64,000 nucleotides of DNA from Sphaerimonospora thailandensis (GTDB taxonomy: Bacteria; Actinomycetota; Actinomycetes; Streptosporangiales; Streptosporangiaceae). The translations under genes were made by a program, and so were the position numbers. The stretch spans positions 186,001 through 250,000 of the forward strand of contig NZ_BOOG01000007.1 of NCBI RefSeq assembly GCF_016863115.1, in the 5' to 3' direction. Positions within the stretch are counted from its first letter, which is position 1. Each line of letters opens with the position of its first letter. This document shows positions 53,241 through 63,809 of the stretch, one piece after another. The notes below the pieces were generated by a model, which saw nothing but the letters and a program-made list of their open reading frames with translations, was not told where the DNA came from and did not search any database.

Positions 53241-53314
53241 CGGGACGTAGCGCAGTTTGGCAGCGCACTTGACTGGGGGTCAAGGGGTCGTGGGTTCAAA
53301 TCCCGCCGTCCCGA
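53241..53314 (+). tRNA. tRNA-Pro (anticodon GGG)
   Basis: 74 nt. The acceptor stem CGGGACG / CGTCCCG is perfect, with discriminator A. The anticodon stem is CTTGA / TCAAG around the loop CTGGGGG, giving anticodon GGG. The T arm is GTGGG TTCAAAT CCCGC. CCA is not encoded. tRNA-Pro genes are common integration sites for actinobacterial elements, and the genes downstream look foreign. Confidence 0.95.
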
Positions 53315-53335
53315 CAGAGTTTTAGCAGGTCAGAG

Positions 53336-56326: not shown

Positions 56327-56494
56327 ATGCGGCACAGCTTCGTCTCCCTGCTCTTTGACTCCGGTGTTCCTCAGGAGGACATCGCCCGTCTCGTCGGTCA
56401 CAGCGGGACAGCTGACACCGAAGCGGTCTACCACATGCAGATCCGCCCTGTCCTCCTCCATGGAGCCGAGGTCATGGGCCGCATCTTCTCGTGA
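56327..56494 (+). pseudogene. C-terminal remnant of a tyrosine-recombinase integrase
   Basis: 55 codons after an in-frame TAG at 56324. The translation begins MRHSFVSLLFDSGVPQ, contains IARLVGHSGTADTEAVYHMQ and ends IRPV...MGRIFS. This is the end of an actinobacterial phage/ICE integrase: the R-H pair of HxLRH, the later His in GHSG and the nucleophile Tyr in AVYHMQIRPV. The rest of the gene, including the catalytic Arg and Lys, is absent upstream, where the defence-like gene lies instead. It shows that an integrative element once occupied this site. Confidence 0.8.
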
Positions 56495-56655
56495 CCAGGC
56501 CGCCTGCGGATACCCGCAGCAGACGTTCCGCGAACACGCTCCGAGACAGGGCTTCCCTCTGGAGTGTGGACACCCGGTGAACGTGTGGGCCGTGGCCGGC
56601 GGTGCCAACGTCGGCCACGCGGTGGTGCGCGGGGACGGCCCGAACCGGCGGAGAC
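56495..56655. other. Non-coding stretch after the integrase remnant
   Basis: About 160 bp with no convincing gene on either strand. One small hairpin (CTGCGG / CCGCAG) is visible near 56509-56524. Confidence 0.4.
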
Positions 56656-56880
56656 TCAGCGTGGCGGGGTGTAGATCGGCCTCGCGGCCCACGGGATCAG
56701 CGAGTGCCATGGCCGTGGGAAGTCAATCTCGCAGCACCGTATAGAGCCCGCGTCGCTCAGCGCGGTGCGCACTAGCTCGATTTGGTCTGCGTGGATGACC
56801 AGGTCGAGGTCGTAGCCCTCCTGAGCCTCGGTCTTTGCCAGGCGTTCTGCGTCGTTGCCGTGGTCACCGTATGGCGGCAC
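56656..56880 (-). pseudogene. Possible gene fragment, 74 codons, nucleotidyltransferase-like
   Basis: From GTG 56880 the frame reads DHGNDAERLAKTEAQEGYDL, then DLVIHADQIELVRTALSDAG, then a Trp/Pro-rich end (PRPWHSLIPWAARPIYTPPR). The composition is that of a real protein, unlike overlapping frames. The DLDLVIHADQIELVRTAL segment weakly recalls small nucleotidyltransferases, but no catalytic pair is complete. It could be a remnant or a small hypothetical protein. Confidence 0.35.
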
Positions 56881-56918
56881 CCCGTCCCGGCGGCTGACTA
56901 TGCGCCGGCTTAGCCCGT

Positions 56919-57039
56919 CCCCGCAACCCGGGTTCTCGCCCGCGCTCGGTTGCGGGTTGTGGTGGGCGAGTGGTGGCCGTTGAAGATCTTTTGCTGGCGC
57001 AAAACATCTTCAACGGCCACCAGCACCCGGGTTGCGGGG
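56919..57039 (+). promoter_or_regulatory. Nested inverted repeat (hairpin A) in the leader of the SSB-like gene
   Basis: Inner hairpin: 16-bp arms at 56972-56987 and 57006-57021 (GGTGGCCGTTGAAGAT and its exact complement), a C.C mismatch, then 6-bp arms TTTTGC / GCAAAA around the loop TGGC. Outer arms of 15 bp (CCCCGCAACCCGGGT at 56919-56933 and its complement at 57025-57039) enclose it. The 3' end lies 122 nt before the next start codon. The GATCTTTTGC and GCAAAACATC arms recur in a second hairpin at 60987-61079. It could be an RNA leader structure or a protein-binding dyad. Confidence 0.85.
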
Positions 57040-57161
57040 CCGGTCACGCCGTCGCTCCGTCTGCCTTTTCGCCGGGACGGGGCAGCCGCCGAAACAGCTC
57101 CCCCCCGGTCAAGACGCAAGAAACCCGTGTGGCGGCAGGCCACAGCGAAGGGGGAGGACCC

Positions 57162-57626
57162 GTGCTCGACATCCACATCAGCCTCACCGGCAGGATCGCC
57201 TACGACCCGCGATTCTTCCCGCCCGACCACGAGGCGCCGGCCATGTGGTCGGCGGTGCTGGAGGTCAACGGGCCTCCCACCCCGCGCCGCGATGGCTCGA
57301 CCTACATCCCCACCCGCCAGGTGGAGGTCGTCGTCTACGGCGTCGCGGCGATCCGAGCCCAGGAGTCGTACCGCAAGGGCCAGCTGATCATGGCGCAGGG
57401 CTGCGACCTGATCCCGCGTACCTACGAGACGAAGGGCCGCGAGGGCAAGCCGACCGTCCGCGCCACGGTGAAGGTGATCGCGGCCAATCTCGGGCTGGCC
57501 TCCCGCTACAGCCCGGTGCACGAGGGCACCGCAGGCTGGCCGGTTGACGCCTCACCCCGCCGCCTGGCCCAGGGCGCCCCCGCGGTCGTCGCCGAGGAAC
57601 CCGCCCCTGCTTCCTTCGCCGGCTGA
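57162..57626 (+). CDS. SSB-like OB-fold protein of a mobile element
   Basis: 154 residues from GTG with GGGGGAGG 4 nt upstream. The pattern LTGRIAYDPRFF, then AVLEVNGP, RQVEVVVYGVAAIRAQESYR, then RATVKVIAANLGL resembles the strands of an OB-fold single-stranded-DNA-binding protein, without the canonical SSB consensus. The C-terminal tail is Ala/Pro-rich and lacks the acidic DDDIPF tip. With the canonical SSB at 61449 this gives the element two such proteins. It is the first gene behind hairpin A and shares a ribosome-binding box with the gene at 61176. Confidence 0.65.
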   Translation: MLDIHISLTGRIAYDPRFFPPDHEAPAMWSAVLEVNGPPTPRRDGSTYIPTRQVEVVVYGVAAIRAQESYRKGQLIMAQGCDLIPRTYETKGREGKPTVRATVKVIAANLGLASRYSPVHEGTAGWPVDASPRRLAQGAPAVVAEEPAPASFAG

Positions 57627-57638
57627 CCTCCCCTCGCT

Positions 57639-57669
57639 CGGGCGGCCCGCGACCACCGGGCCGCCCGAA
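57639..57669 (+). terminator. Hairpin between the SSB-like and ParB-like genes
   Basis: A perfect 12-bp stem (TCGGGCGGCCCG / CGGGCCGCCCGA) with a 7-nt loop, 12 bp after the stop codon. Confidence 0.65.
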
Positions 57670-57759
57670 CGGGGTTCACGTCCATGGGTGACCCCTCCCG
57701 ACCTGGACGGCACTACCCGCCCATCTTCATCCCGTACTGCTTTTTTGAAAGGAGTCCGT

Positions 57760-59488
57760 ATGTCCACGACCACCGTTGCCGAGTGGGAGACCGACCTGCG
57801 TGAGGCCGAGGGTCTGCGCCTGGTCCGGATCCCGCTGAAGTTCCTCGACCACCACCCCGGCAACGTCCGCTCCGACTTCGCGCTGACGGAGGCCTTCTGC
57901 CAGTCTCTGGCCGCTGAGCAGCAGGTGCCGGTGCACGTCATCCCGATCCCGGCCGACCACGAGCGGGCCGAGGGGGAGGAGGGCTACCGGTTCTGGGTGA
58001 CCAAGGGTAACCGTCGGCTTGCCGCCGCCCGCAGCACGCAGTTGCCCGACCTGCTGTGCCTGATCGACCTGGCCAAGGCCGGTGACCGTGCCGGCCTGTT
58101 CATCGACATGGTGGTGGAGAACGACGACGACTACCGCCACGGGCTGACCGCCTTCGAGCAGGCCCAGGCGCTGTTCGAGGCACACCATGCTGGCGCGAGC
58201 CGTACCCGCCTCCAGAAGGTCACCGGCCGCAGTCGTCAGCAGATCGCCGAGGCCCTCACTGTCGGCGGCCTGTCGGCGACCACCCAGCAGGGCGCTCGCC
58301 AAATGGATTATGAGTGGACGCTGGAGGACCTGGCGCTGCTGGCCGAGTTCGACGGCGACGAAGAGGGCCTCGCGGAGATCCACGAGCGGCTCCGCTGGGG
58401 TGGCAAGGTCCGCTACGTGGTCGAGCGCGTCCGCACCGAACGGGCCGAGGCCGCCGAGCACGCTCGGCTGCGGGCCGAGCTGGAAGAGTCCGGCATTACC
58501 GTCACCGAGCAGCTTCCGCCGGGCGCGCTCACGCTCGCCCGCCTGGCCGACGCCGTCGACGGCTTCGACCCTGAGACGCACGCCACCTGCGGTGGGCACG
58601 GGGTGTACTTCCGTTCCTTCGACAAGACCACTCCGGTGGCCTACTGCACCACCCCGGACCAGCACGGCCACGCCGTACCGGCCTCACCTGTGGTGACTGG
58701 CACGGCCGAACCGGCCAAGGGTGAGGATCTCGAGCGCAGGCTCGTCATCGAGGGCAACCGGGCGTGGAAGGCCAGTGCCGTCGTACGCCAGGAATGGGTG
58801 GCCGCCCTGCTGGCCCGCACCACCGCCCGCGCCAAGGCCGGTCCTGGCCTGGGTCGCCCGGCAGCTGGTGGAGATGCCCGCCCCGCTGCGGGACAAGCTC
58901 ACCGCTGCCCGGCACAGCCCACTGTGGGCCACACTCACCGGAAACTTCCGCGTGGAGAATGCCGCCACCGTCCGGCCGGGACGGCTGCCGCTGCTGGCCC
59001 TGGCACCGATCGCCGTGGCGTACGAGCACCAGATGACCGTCCCGGACACAGCCAGATACACCTGGCGGCAGGACCGCTCCTGCCCGGTCAGCCGCGCCGA
59101 CGCGGCCGCGTACCTGTCTCTGCTGGCCGAGCTCGGCTACCTACCCACGCCGATCGAGCAGGCGATTATCGACGGTGTGCCGTACCGTGGCGACGCACCC
59201 ACGGGCGAGGGACTGGAGTCCGACCCGTCGGCCGACGACACGGACGTCAACGACCGGTCGCAGCACCCGGATGAGGCGGAGACCAACGGCGGCACCTCCG
59301 CCGGCGAGAAGCCGGAACCCGACCCGTCGGCCGAGGCCGCCGACGTCGACAGCTGGCCGCAGAACCCCGCTGCGGCGCAGCCGAGTGGCGCGCCCGCGAC
59401 GGACGTCGACGCCTGGGTGGACCCCGAAACCGACCGCGACGCCGACGCCGACGCTGACGACGGCACGCCGTACTCGGCGGCGGCCTGA
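57760..59488 (+). pseudogene. ParB-like nuclease/partition protein gene with a frameshift
   Basis: Starts at ATG 57760 behind AAAGGAG. The N-terminal ParB/Srx domain has VRIPLKFLDHHPGNVRSDF and TKGNRRLAAARS; a helix-turn-helix follows (RLQKVTGRSRQQIAEALTVG). At about 58840 the frame changes: frame one runs on as unlikely Arg/Pro/Gly-rich sequence to 59274, while the +1 frame continues sensibly with VLAWVARQLVEMPAPLRDKL and an acidic Asp/Ala tail to the stop at 59488. One extra G in CCGGTCC explains it. Corrected, the protein has about 575 residues. A sequencing error or programmed shift cannot be excluded. Confidence 0.75.
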
Positions 59489-59504
59489 CCCAGCCCCTCC
59501 TTCA

Positions 59505-59568
59505 GGGCGCGCGTGCCGCGCGCCCGCACCACGCCCCACGGGCCCGGCCTCACCACGAGGCCGGGCCC
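59505..59568 (+). terminator. Two tandem GC-rich hairpins after the ParB-like gene
   Basis: First stem of 9 bp (GGGCGCGCG / CGCGCGCCC, 3-nt loop, 59505-59525), second stem of 12 bp (GGGCCCGGCCTC / GAGGCCGGGCCC, 5-nt loop, 59540-59568). Both are perfect. The second ends 28 bp before the next start codon. Confidence 0.7.
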
Positions 59569-59595
59569 TCCGCTTACCACCCGGAAGGACCGCAG

Positions 59596-60753
59596 ATGAC
59601 CATCGTCTCTCCCGTTCCGCTCACCACCCGCAACGCCGACCTGGGCGACCTGCACGCGCTGCTGCGCGACCAGCACGCCCGCAAGGTCGACGTTCCAGTC
59701 GGCGCCGCGCAGATCCGCGCCGTCGGCACGCACCTGCAGCTGATCGGCACCCCGCCGGTGCTGTCGGATGCAGGTGTCACCGACAGCAGTGGCCTGTACC
59801 TGCCGACCGAGATCTGCGACCAGGGCCTGGCCGACAAGCTCGGCATCCCGCCCGCCTACCTGCGGAGGCTGCGCGAGCAGCGGCCCGGCCTGTACGAGGC
59901 GAACGTCAACGGCTGGCTGGAGACCGACGACCGCCGCTTCCTCGTACGCGCGCTGCGCGGCACCGGCGACGGGGCCGATGTGGCCCGGGCGTTCCTGTCG
60001 GACCGCTACAAGCTCATCGACAACCTGGACGTCCTCATGGCCGCCCTGGACGGGGTACGGCTCGCCGGAGTCGACGTCCGCATCGACGGCTGCGATCTGA
60101 CCGAACGGCGCATGTACGTCCGCGTGGTGTGCGAGCAGGTCGCCGCCCTGGCCCCCGAACTGCTGGCCGACTACCGCAGCCCGTTCACCGGCGCCTCCGG
60201 TGCTGACAACCCGCTGGTCTTCGCCGGATTCGTGATCAGTAACAGCGAGACCGGCTGTGGGGCGTTCACCGTCACCCCGCGGCTGCTGGTACAGGTCTGC
60301 AACAACGGCCTGACCATCAACGCCGACGCCCACCGCCACGTCCACCTCGGCGGCCGCCTCGACGGCGGCGAGACTGACGGCGGCATCATCCGCTGGAGCG
60401 GCGACACCCAGGACAAGAACCTGGCCCTGATCACGGCCAAGACCCGGGATGCCATCACCACCTTCCTGGACATCGACTACGTCAAGGCCAAGATCCGCGA
60501 GCTGACCGAGGTCGCCGGTGCCGAGCTCGCCGACCCGGAGAAGACCATCCAGACGGTCGCCACCAAGTTGCGATTCACCGAGGAGCAGCAGCGCGACATC
60601 CTGCGCCACTTCATCCGCGGCGGTGATCTGACCGCCGGCGGCGTGATGCACGCCGTCACCAGCGTCGCCCAGACCATCGACGACGCCGACACCGCCCACG
60701 ACATGGAAGGCCAGGCACTGCGCGCCCTGCACTTGGCCGCCACCGGCACCTGA
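59596..60753 (+). CDS. DUF932 phage/plasmid-like protein
   Basis: 385 residues from ATG with GGAAGGA upstream. The DUF932 pattern is clear: FLSDRYKLIDNLDVLMAA, the RMYVRVV strand, GFVISNSETGCGAFTVTP, LVQVCNNGLTI and a C-terminal helical part with DILRHFIRGGDLTAGGVM. Proteins of this family are carried by phages and plasmids of many bacteria, often near SSB and ParB genes; the molecular function is not known. It stands alone between hairpins. Confidence 0.85.
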   Translation: MTIVSPVPLTTRNADLGDLHALLRDQHARKVDVPVGAAQIRAVGTHLQLIGTPPVLSDAGVTDSSGLYLPTEICDQGLADKLGIPPAYLRRLREQRPGLYEANVNGWLETDDRRFLVRALRGTGDGADVARAFLSDRYKLIDNLDVLMAALDGVRLAGVDVRIDGCDLTERRMYVRVVCEQVAALAPELLADYRSPFTGASGADNPLVFAGFVISNSETGCGAFTVTPRLLVQVCNNGLTINADAHRHVHLGGRLDGGETDGGIIRWSGDTQDKNLALITAKTRDAITTFLDIDYVKAKIRELTEVAGAELADPEKTIQTVATKLRFTEEQQRDILRHFIRGGDLTAGGVMHAVTSVAQTIDDADTAHDMEGQALRALHLAATGT

Positions 60754-60774
60754 TCGGCGCCCTTTCGCAGACCC

Positions 60775-60809
60775 CGCGCGGGCTCCCCCAGAGGCGAGGG
60801 GCCCGCGCG
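60775..60809 (+). terminator. Hairpin after the DUF932 gene
   Basis: An 8-bp stem (CGCGCGGG / CCCGCGCG) enclosing a further CCCC/GGGG pairing, 21 bp after the stop. Confidence 0.6.
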
Positions 60810-60986
60810 ATCCTCTGTCCTGTTCCGAACCCAGCGCGGATACGACGAGTTCGGACGTTTCGCGGCCGGATCCCGCAGGTGAGGGGCATGTCCTGCTGCG
60901 CATCGGTGAAGCCCCCTGCTGCGTGTTCTGGCCGGTCAGTCTCGCAGGCACGGTCGTTCACGCAACCAGGCTCTCGCTCCGCTCGC

Positions 60987-61079
60987 CCCGCACGTGCATG
61001 ATCTTTTGCCGTCTGGAGTCGGCTCCATCCGCCACCCGTATATCGAACTCACCGCGGCAAAACATCGTGCCCGTACGGG
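60987..61079 (+). promoter_or_regulatory. Imperfect inverted repeat (hairpin B) in the leader of the zinc-ribbon gene
   Basis: 25-nt arms at 60987-61011 and 61055-61079 match at 21 of 25 positions across a 43-nt loop. The arms contain GATCTTTTGC and GCAAAACATC, exactly as hairpin A, with the same C.C mismatch (61003/61063). A small GGAG/CTCC stem lies in the loop. It ends 96 nt before the start codon of the next gene. The region 60810-60986 between the terminator and this structure shows no gene. Confidence 0.75.
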
Positions 61080-61175
61080 GCCGCCCGGTTGCCCTCTCTC
61101 CCTTCCGCCTGCGTCCCCTCCCTCACCAGAACACGCCACGGACGCCCGGCAGGAGTCCCAGCGAAGGAGCAGGAC

Positions 61176-61358
61176 ATGACCCTCATCCTCGACCTCCCCC
61201 TCTACTCGACCGACCTCACCGCCTGCGGCCGCTGCGGCGAGACCGCCCAGCTGGAGCAGATGTTCCGCTGTTCCGGCCGGACGTGGATCTGCCTGGGCTG
61301 CATCACCGAGGCCGTCGAGGCCCACCGCCTGGCGGTCGTGGCCGGCCGCCAGGTCTAG
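61176..61358 (+). CDS. Mini zinc-ribbon protein
   Basis: 60 residues. Two Cys pairs, CGRC at 17-20 and CxxC formed by CLGC near 39-42, with a further Cys between them, fit a single zinc ribbon. ATG 61176 follows directly on a box (CAGCGAAGGAGCAGGAC) that is almost identical to the one before the SSB-like gene at 57162. Small zinc-ribbon proteins of this kind are common on actinobacterial plasmids; the role is unknown. Confidence 0.7.
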   Translation: MTLILDLPLYSTDLTACGRCGETAQLEQMFRCSGRTWICLGCITEAVEAHRLAVVAGRQV

Positions 61359-61371
61359 GAACTGCACGCGT

Positions 61372-61401
61372 GCGACGCGGGGGCCCACGCCTCCGCGTCG
61401 C
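61372..61401 (+). terminator. Hairpin after the zinc-ribbon gene
   Basis: A perfect 9-bp stem (GCGACGCGG / CCGCGTCGC) with a 12-nt loop, followed by CCTTTCC. Confidence 0.65.
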
Positions 61402-61448: not shown

Positions 61449-61958
61449 ATGGCCAACGAGACCGCCATCACCATCGTCGGCAACCTCACCGCCGACCCCC
61501 GTCTGTTCTTCAGCCGGCAGGGCGTGGCGGTGGTGAACTTCACCGTCGCGGCGTCTCGCCGGGTGTATGACAAGGCCACGGACCGCTGGCTCGACAGTGA
61601 CACGTTGTTCCTGCGGTGTTCGGCGTTTCGGCAGCTGGCCGAGAACATCGCTGAGTCGCTGACCAAGGGGTCGCGCGTGGTGGTCACCGGACGGCTGCGA
61701 CAGCACGGGTACGAAGACAAGGAAGGCATCTGGCGCACGTCCGTCGAGGTCGATGTCGAGGACGTCGGTCCGTCGCTGAAGTGGGCCATCGCCAAGGTCA
61801 CCAAGGTTCCGGGTGGTGTCCAGACGGATAGCACAGCCGCCCCGGTAACCGATCCGTGGGCGGTCGCGCCTGCTTCACCGTCACCGGTCCCCGCGTGGTT
61901 GGCTCCTGCGGCACCGGCTGGCGGCTTTCCGGGTAACCCTTCTGATCTCGCGGCGTGA
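61449..61958 (+). CDS. ssb: Single-stranded DNA-binding protein
   Basis: 169 residues from ATG with GGAGG 7 nt upstream. Canonical SSB OB fold: TIVGNLTADPRLFF, VVNFTVAASRR, LFLRCSAFRQLAENIAESL and KGSRVVVTGRLRQ. The tail is Ala/Pro-rich and ends GNPSDLAA without the acidic tip that binds replication partners, so this is probably an accessory, element-borne copy rather than the chromosomal SSB. Confidence 0.92.
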   Translation: MANETAITIVGNLTADPRLFFSRQGVAVVNFTVAASRRVYDKATDRWLDSDTLFLRCSAFRQLAENIAESLTKGSRVVVTGRLRQHGYEDKEGIWRTSVEVDVEDVGPSLKWAIAKVTKVPGGVQTDSTAAPVTDPWAVAPASPSPVPAWLAPAAPAGGFPGNPSDLAA

Positions 61959-63122: not shown

Positions 63123-63809
63123 TCACTCTGGAATGGCGGTACCACCGGGACGGTGTGAAGACCGATAACCGTGGCGTGCGCGGGAGGGCAAGGCGAGGAC
63201 GGAGGAGCCTGCCAGCCATGCAGCGAGTTGCACGCGGTTGATCAAGATTAGTTCGGTGCTCGCTGCGGACTGTCTGGCGGGGCCGGTGAAGTCGGCTGTG
63301 GTGACCAGGACGCCACGATGACCGGGGTAGGCGTGCAGTGCGCCGAGAAGGTTGCGTATCTCCGGAGAGCCAACTGATTTCGCCCACCTCTTGCACTGGA
63401 CGACGAACCGCTCTCCGGTGGATGCGACTGCGACGATGTCGACGCCTCCGTCGCCGCTGCCGCCGATCCGGTGCACCTTGTGGAAGCCGTCACGCTGGAG
63501 CAGGGCTTCGATGAGGGCTTCGAACTGACTGCCGGTCATCCGGTCGGCTTTCTCCAGACGGGCGTTGTCTCTCAGCCATTCCTGTCGTCGTGCCTCGATC
63601 ACCCGGGCTCGCAGGAGCAGGGCCCCTATGATGCCGATCGCTGTCACGATCGTGATGACGATGACGAGCGGCCAGTTGGCGGTGATGAACTCAATGAGCC
63701 GTTTGACCATCACGATCAGGAGGATTGCGGCGACCGGCCATAAGAACCAGGCCGGGTCGTTCCTCCGTCGCCGGGAGCGTCGACGGACGGGGGGACGTCG
63801 TCGTGCCAT
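63123..63809 (-). CDS. Membrane-anchored Mrr-type restriction endonuclease
   Basis: 228 residues. A very basic N-terminus is followed by two transmembrane helices (about 21-40 and 45-67), then a cytoplasmic coiled region and an Mrr domain. Catalytic pattern: E98 in SQFEALIEALLQ, D120 and D124 in GSGDGGVDIVA, and Q138-x-K140 in FVVQCKRW. Mrr enzymes cut DNA, often modified DNA; tethering to the membrane suggests action on incoming DNA. It lies alone, with about 250 bp of upstream and downstream non-coding sequence. Confidence 0.82.
   Translation of the reverse strand: MARRRPPVRRRSRRRRNDPAWFLWPVAAILLIVMVKRLIEFITANWPLVIVITIVTAIGIIGALLLRARVIEARRQEWLRDNARLEKADRMTGSQFEALIEALLQRDGFHKVHRIGGSGDGGVDIVAVASTGERFVVQCKRWAKSVGSPEIRNLLGALHAYPGHRGVLVTTADFTGPARQSAASTELILINRVQLAAWLAGSSVLALPSRARHGYRSSHRPGGTAIPE

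Follow-up and report, generated by a model that had tools for sequence, protein, structure and literature searches.

The 64,000-nt stretch of DNA analyzed here (positions 186,001 to 250,000, forward strand, of contig NZ_BOOG01000007.1 of Sphaerimonospora thailandensis; hereafter the window) contains genes of a mobile element, two of which are preceded by related folded elements of about 220 nt, designated A and B. These structures are real, conserved, and under structural selection. Each is probably a single-stranded-DNA (ssDNA) promoter serving the mobile element's leading region, resembling the Frpo promoters of plasmid F in how it would work but not a Frpo member by sequence or promoter boxes. 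This reading builds on direct observations of the structure, its covariation, its placement and orientation (ahead of start codons, and upstream of relaxase genes), and a fold bias toward the template strand.

Structure and conservation of the folded elements

An earlier, sequence-only reading had described hairpins A and B as related, sharing two 10-mers and the same C.C mismatch, and all three features were located in each hairpin. The 10-mer GATCTTTTGC lies at 56985-56994 in A and 61000-61009 in B, GCAAAACATC lies at 56999-57008 in A and 61057-61066 in B, and the mismatch in A is at 56988/57005. Across the 6.18-Mb genome, the pair of 10-mers is found at two places and the reversed control pattern at none. 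Folded as sense RNA, the hairpin A region (56900-57050) had a z of -8.6 and the hairpin B region (60955-61105) a z of -5.0. The hairpins thus exist as described, but they are the tips of larger folded elements (A, ~56876-57087; B, ~60921-61136), each closed by a terminal stem. Features of the two elements are given below in window coordinates; the component stems and hairpins carry no strand.

56876..57087, - strand: element A, the whole folded unit before the SSB-like gene (template strand, the presumed folding strand; alignments A1 and A2)
56876..56893: A terminal stem P0, left arm, partner 57070-57087 (fold, A2 alignment)
57070..57087: A terminal stem P0, right arm, partner 56876-56893 (fold, A2 alignment)
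56920..56934: A long stem P1, left arm CCCCGCAACCCGGGT, partner 57025-57039 (sense and template folds, A2)
57025..57039: A long stem P1, right arm, partner 56920-56934 (sense and template folds)
56936..56970: A side hairpin P2, CTCGCCC / GGGCGAG (sense fold; helix 6 of the A2 covariation test)
56971..57022: A apical hairpin P3, core AGATCTTT...AAACATCTT with the C.C mismatch 56988/57005 (fold and A2)
60921..61136, - strand: element B, the whole folded unit before the zinc-ribbon gene (template-strand DNA fold)
60921..60931: B terminal stem (11 bp), left arm GCGTGTTCTGG, partner 61126-61136 (DNA fold and sequence)
61126..61136: B terminal stem (11 bp), right arm CCAGAACACGC, partner 60921-60931 (DNA fold and sequence)
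60962..60967: B P1, left arm GCAACC, partner GGTTGC at 61087-61092 (sense and template folds)
60986..61080: B apical hairpin P3 (60986-61009 paired with 61057-61080), sharing its core and C.C mismatch with A and having a larger loop

Folded as DNA, the - strand of element A (56876-57100) reached -96.5 kcal/mol (z -12.0), and none of 200 shuffles was as good; the - strand of element B (60900-61150) reached -66 kcal/mol (z -5.2). Covariance model R1 scored them at 71.4 and 50.9 bits, respectively, each being itself among the sequences of the model. The sequence-only reading knew of no described motif of this form, and the covariance models of Rfam 15 likewise gave no match up to an E value of 5 in 56800-61300.

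Further genomic examples, whose absence would have refuted that reading, were found. A strict core pattern gave 32 matches across 14 of the 341 genomes searched in the family (two of the 32, G245:C30 and C33, came without a locus and went unread), and its reversed control gave none. A looser pattern matched in 18 of 394 genomes of the class, with one control match. After the flanks were read, the looser matches in G000, G391 (two), G478, G487, and G668 were accepted, and the others were set aside as apparent coding matches or chance. Those of the f27 genomes were dropped as, by eye, one conserved coding stretch, and L204, L207, L209, L214, and L216 were likewise dropped. Variants with altered yet complementary arms were present in other Actinomycetia. 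Altogether, 38 distinct instances were collected, a count that excludes Sphaerimonospora mesophila and identical copies. Copies were found in Actinomycetia genomes only, other phyla being covered solely through plasmid, phage, and viral-contig collections. By blastn, the 30-nt core had no full-length match in 72,556 plasmid records or in the phage collection, and 95 pattern matches in viral contigs were judged to be chance, as flanking complementarity never exceeded 7 of 12 pairs and was usually 3-4. Five weak matches in the phylum (22.8-24.2 bits, E 0.002-0.004) were set aside.

Across 30 aligned hairpins, GATCTTT and AAACATC were invariant, with an unpaired C on each side, an invariance that is partly built in since the search patterns held most of these letters. 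The outer arms vary freely and stay complementary, with 320 Watson-Crick, 4 G.T, 6 A.C, and 12 other pairs in register. In alignment A2 (21 sequences, 51 pairs), 94.3% of 1,070 cells were paired and 21 of the 51 pairs had changes on both sides (114 cells); stem P0 had double changes at 5 of 12 pairs. The covariation score of 0.301 exceeded the shuffled mean of 0.121 and was reached by none of 500 shuffles. Pairing kept through altered arms, together with these double and compensatory changes, bears out the earlier suggestion that the structure is selected.

Model R1 was searched against 28 sources and matched in 11, with no match in the Streptomyces, Pseudonocardia, Amycolatopsis, or Streptosporangium plasmid loci or in the F leading region. 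It recovered freer variants: that of L065 is perfectly paired, L064:9798 has a one-sided base change, and L064:7143, L068, and L071 have paired changes adjoining the mismatch. The larger-loop variants L064, L068, L065, and L219 have a common TCCTNCGTC-like apical loop, and L069 and the strict core have TG-N-C-like apical loops; the two loop types are perhaps two subclasses. At L217 (G668:C94), the main hairpin is closely preceded by another related one, AGATCTTTTAG...CTAAAACAGTCT, possibly a tandem copy.

Placement, orientation, and folding strand

As the sequence-only reading had it, the two structures precede separate genes of the mobile element, an SSB-like gene behind A and a zinc-ribbon-like gene behind B. 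The distance of about 100-120 nt to the start codon was approximate: in B, 97 nt separate the hairpin end at 61079 from the ATG at 61176, and in A, 140 nt separate the hairpin end at 57021 from the GTG at 57162, or about 122 nt when counted from the outer arm. The 17-nt box that the two genes share (57143-57159 and 61159-61175) is indeed identical at 15 of 17 positions. We rejected it as a regulatory feature and take it for an ordinary ribosome-binding site because in Microbispora just the Shine-Dalgarno part is conserved.

Under one fixed filter, 33 of the 38 instances were followed on the same strand by a gene start at a distance of 109-167 nt. L105, outside the 33, has a gene start at 110 nt by reading, and no gene start was called for L094 (contig end), L097, L217, or L221. 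The downstream genes encode SSB-like proteins in Sphaerimonospora, Microbispora, and Nonomuraea, and elsewhere a zinc-ribbon protein, a FAD-dependent monooxygenase-like protein, and a ~197-aa protein without a family. At L105 the gene encodes a small membrane-type protein and lies just before a TrwC relaxase; at L202 it is ParB-like (PF02195, E 4e-6), and at L203 a weak SprT-like protein, under the cut-off. In L067, a metagenome-assembled genome, folded elements precede both a DUF932-like and an SSB-like gene; the former has no Pfam match and was identified as a relative of the DUF932-annotated protein of the window. R1 sites lay 102-120 nt before a DUF932 match, on the same strand, in five mobile elements, four of them without an earlier match; these loci had been fetched around DUF932, and the exact site position had not been chosen. 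By reading, L064:9798 precedes an SSB-like gene by 117 nt.

This placement bears on whether the elements are double-stranded operators or cruciforms bound by a regulator of the mobile element, such as the ParB-like or DUF932 protein, as had also been suggested. The core sequence is common to several copies within one mobile element, as an operator would be. However, the arms vary with pairing kept, which a duplex-binding protein would not need, the core is asymmetric, its orientation to the gene is the same in all 33 instances with a called gene, and the fold has a strand bias. None of the results tied the ParB-like or the DUF932 protein to the motif. We regard such a binding site as very improbable.

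If the elements are ssDNA promoters, their genes must read toward oriT and the relaxase gene, a prediction that was set down before, though in one step with, the relaxase search (PF08751 and PF03432 in 20 genomes). All 20 hairpins counted, on 12 contigs, were upstream of a same-strand relaxase gene, at distances of 0.7-100 kb. The count includes G183:C58, where 74 kb separate hairpin and relaxase. It excludes contigs where hairpins occurred without any relaxase match, relaxase matches on hairpin-free contigs, G391 (whose sole PF03432 match lies on the opposite strand at a distance of 1.6 Mb), a further TrwC match of G487 (>2 Mb distant), and two additional L064 hairpins that were detected later and are also upstream of TrwC. 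In the genome of the window, the folded elements are followed by a NikA/MobC-like gene and then a PF03432 relaxase gene (C7:251812-253751). According to the available text of PMC11541004, the lagging region is where relaxase genes are usually located. Given that the genes point toward the relaxase gene, and if this gene is lagging here too, the strand that enters the recipient would be the template of these genes.

The template strand was also the better folder. It was the more stable strand in 38 of 38 instances by DNA parameters and in 37, with one tie, by RNA parameters. Raw strand energies alone were not used, as control windows from the same loci lean toward the template by composition (15/24 and 21/24). 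After 40 dinucleotide shuffles each, the template strand was better in 37 of 38 instances (mean z 2.3), compared with 5/24 and 10/24 (15/48) of the control windows after the same correction. In the RNase P RNA control it was better in 13 of 29 by DNA parameters and 10 of 29 by RNA parameters. With G-U pairs allowed, consensus energies for template and sense were -57.9 and -56.1 by RNA parameters and -27.8 and -23.1 by DNA parameters. Part of the bias may be due to the shared core, which has a G.G mismatch when read on the template strand.

Wobble pairs give a second view of the folding strand. Under selection for a sense RNA, G-U pairs should be tolerated and A-C pairs should not. A wobble-free A2 consensus (43 pairs) had 10 G.T and 15 A.C cells on the sense strand, whereas the same treatment of RNase P RNA, taken from 29 genomes of this family, gave 58 G.T and 13 A.C. 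With G-U pairs allowed in the consensus, the sense-fitted version had 30 G.T and 20 A.C cells and the template-fitted version 36 and 11.

These results bear most on a cis-regulatory RNA leader, in which the folded sense transcript of a 5' untranslated region would be read by an RNA-binding protein, processive antitermination, or the ribosome. Position 109-167 nt before start codons, strong sense-strand folds, and covariation are all consistent with it, as are the structured regions before establishment operons of pLS20 in the available text of PMC8708921. The cis-regulatory RNAs of Rfam 15 likewise have a conserved fold before starts; here there were no matches to them, and the fold bias is to the opposite strand. 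We do not favor the RNA leader raised as a possibility by the sequence-only reading, and consider it unlikely, because the wobble pairs are not biased toward the sense strand and it is the template strand that folds better. No canonical promoter was found upstream of the elements either. A scan with the E. coli consensus gave no sigma-70-like promoter on the + strand of 56600-61400, and TTGAC-N17-20-TANNNT was absent from 28 non-redundant instances over 300 nt upstream and 110 nt downstream of the core. TANNNT itself occurred 7 times in 8,400 nt upstream, and the 3,080 nt downstream contained one copy. To the eye, alignment A1 is conserved from the P0 arm onward, with no conservation upstream of it. 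As far as consensus scans tell, the elements seem to be silent as duplex DNA.

Genes of the mobile element

The genes around A and B in the window are as follows.

57162..57626, + strand: SSB-like gene behind element A, GTG start (PF00436, E 7e-5, 23.3 bits, under the cut-off of 26)
57760..59274, + strand: ParB-like gene, next in the putative operon (TIGR00180, E 6e-6, under its cut-off; phrog_6218, ParB-like, E 7e-33)
59596..60753, + strand: DUF932-annotated gene, homologues so named in plasmid records (phrog_1362, E 3e-92; PF06067, E 0.056, under the cut-off)
61176..61358, + strand: zinc-ribbon-like gene, 60 aa, behind element B (two CxxC pairs in the translation)
61449..61958, + strand: second SSB gene, nearer the relaxase gene (PF00436, E 8e-27)

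The TIGR00180 and phrog_6218 matches of the ParB-like gene were computed on its first 366 residues. Its reading frame changes in 58840-59488: the open reading frame is 504 aa from the ATG, compared with 576 aa open in S. mesophila, which appears to reflect a frameshift or an assembly error. S. mesophila, of the same genus, has the nearest copy of the locus, with 99% identity over the DUF932-annotated protein. Relatives of that protein were found in 225 phage records, 204 of them from Mycobacterium phages, and the gene is thus common to phages and conjugative elements. The zinc-ribbon-like protein had no match in Pfam, NCBIfam, or PHROG.

Plasmid F (NC_002483) has, on one strand, ssb at 58643, a ParB-family gene at 59538, psiB, DUF932 at 64438, and then traM at 66479, with one opposite-strand gene between DUF932 and traM. 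The SSB-like, ParB-like, and DUF932-annotated genes of the window are in the same order as in F. Likeness between the proteins is remote for DUF932 (a 27-residue BLASTP match, E 0.002, besides the sub-cut-off PF06067 match) and weak for ParB (E 0.003).

Several other features were noted nearby. An Mrr-type restriction endonuclease gene (63123-63809, - strand; PF04471, E 7e-34) separates the putative leading region from the mobilization genes and runs in the opposite orientation. At L073:10095-11699, a gene with DUF4041, MUG113, and T5orf172 directly precedes the NikA/MobC-like and relaxase genes. Just 5' of element A, 56330-56492 resembles, by eye, the C-terminal part of a tyrosine recombinase; the rest of the gene is missing, and Pfam gave no match for the submitted frame. 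Upstream of the mobile element genes, a tRNA-Pro (GGG) gene at 53241-53315 is a possible integration site.

Proposed function and relation to known systems

We propose that the SSB-like, ParB-like, DUF932-annotated, and zinc-ribbon genes would form a leading region pointing to oriT and the relaxase gene, and that the first strand to enter the recipient would be their template. In this entering strand, each element would fold into a long branched hairpin with the conserved mismatched core at its tip. The duplex so formed would be a promoter, and possibly also a primer start, from which RNA polymerase would drive a burst of establishment genes. Second-strand synthesis would then remove the fold and switch the promoter off.

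Expression from an entering single strand has been demonstrated for the F plasmid, where Frpo1 and Frpo2 are required for early expression in recipients and Frpo2 lies upstream of ssb (available text of PMC9849209). The elements described here resemble Frpo/ssi of F and ColIb-P9 in that several folded copies occur in the leading region, one of them directly before an SSB gene, in that the genes point to relaxosome genes, and in that an apical hairpin sits in a long imperfect stem, as in the F Frpo2 fold. Upstream placement relative to a same-strand relaxase gene (20/20 hairpins) and a stable template-strand fold (z -12.0 and -5.2, with 37 of 38 instances template-biased) are further likenesses to Frpo/ssi. 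In contrast to Frpo/ssi, they have a conserved core with a C.C (template G.G) mismatch and no -35/-10 consensus, and their promoter activity is predicted. The stem-restored -35/-10 consensus was absent from the 28 non-redundant instances, R1 had no match in F 48000-70000, and the 30-nt core had no full plasmid match.

The EGeRS1 elements of pLS20 (Bacillus) are also several conserved structured regions before establishment operons of a Gram-positive conjugative element, and structured repeats before several such operons were found here as well. According to the available text of PMC8708921, EGeRS1 elements are 420-750 bp long, versus ~220 nt here, and no constitutive promoter is reported at them.

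A non-promoter site on the entering strand, serving for priming of second-strand synthesis or as a landing site for a protein of the mobile element, would fit the ssDNA strand evidence equally well. Frpo also primes DNA synthesis (Masai and Arai 1997, by its title as cited in PMC11541004), and a DnaG_N/toprim primase gene lies near the relaxase gene. Priming, however, needs neither a spacing of 109-167 nt before the starts of different genes nor a threefold repeat such as that of G283:C1, where three copies are spread over ~94 kb of one contig. We do not think a site of this kind a likely account and count it, with the RNA leader, as one of the two main rivals of the proposed promoter.

Several points weigh against an ssDNA promoter. 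Slid versions of the A2 structure scored 0.046-0.111 for covariation, but the structure tested was derived from A2 itself and part of its lead over them is expected. Of the sources with DUF932 elements, 17 of 28 had no R1 match (some sources are duplicates of one place). Ten of the 12 contigs in the relaxase count come from one family and seven from one genus, so they do not represent independent cases. Neither an oriT nor a nic site was located, and transfer polarity rests on the usual lagging position of relaxase genes. In pLS20 the transferred strand is the non-template strand, according to the available text of PMC8708921, whereas here it would be the template. The Frpo positive control had a weak template bias, with a positive z in 6 of 7 copies. 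The contrast in wobble counts (10:15 versus 58:13) gives a Fisher P of 2e-4, which needs care, as few cells were counted (25) and the sequences are related to one another. Finally, consensus scans found no Frpo-type -35/-10 pair in the elements.

We still judge an ssDNA promoter the probable function. More tentatively, and with somewhat less than even confidence, these elements may constitute a separate Actinomycetota class of ssDNA promoters, unrelated to Frpo, without vegetative -35/-10 boxes and read through the mismatched core AGATCTTT/AAACATCTT, so that the establishment genes would be read only while the strand is single. Among the paper titles listed, none was on an actinobacterial ssDNA promoter; Extended Data Fig. 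5 of PMC11541004 includes a leading region from Streptomyces, in which an actinobacterial Frpo candidate may be marked. Two published surveys take Frpo homology or sigma-70 boxes as their starting point (available text of PMC11541004 and PMC12826799), and surveys built in this way would miss these elements. If the proposal is true, actinobacterial mobile elements would own a separate route to expression from the entering strand, and the core would be a handle for finding establishment and anti-defense genes in actinobacteria. The bias of wobble pairs toward the sense or the template strand could then separate ssDNA elements from RNA leaders by sequence alone.

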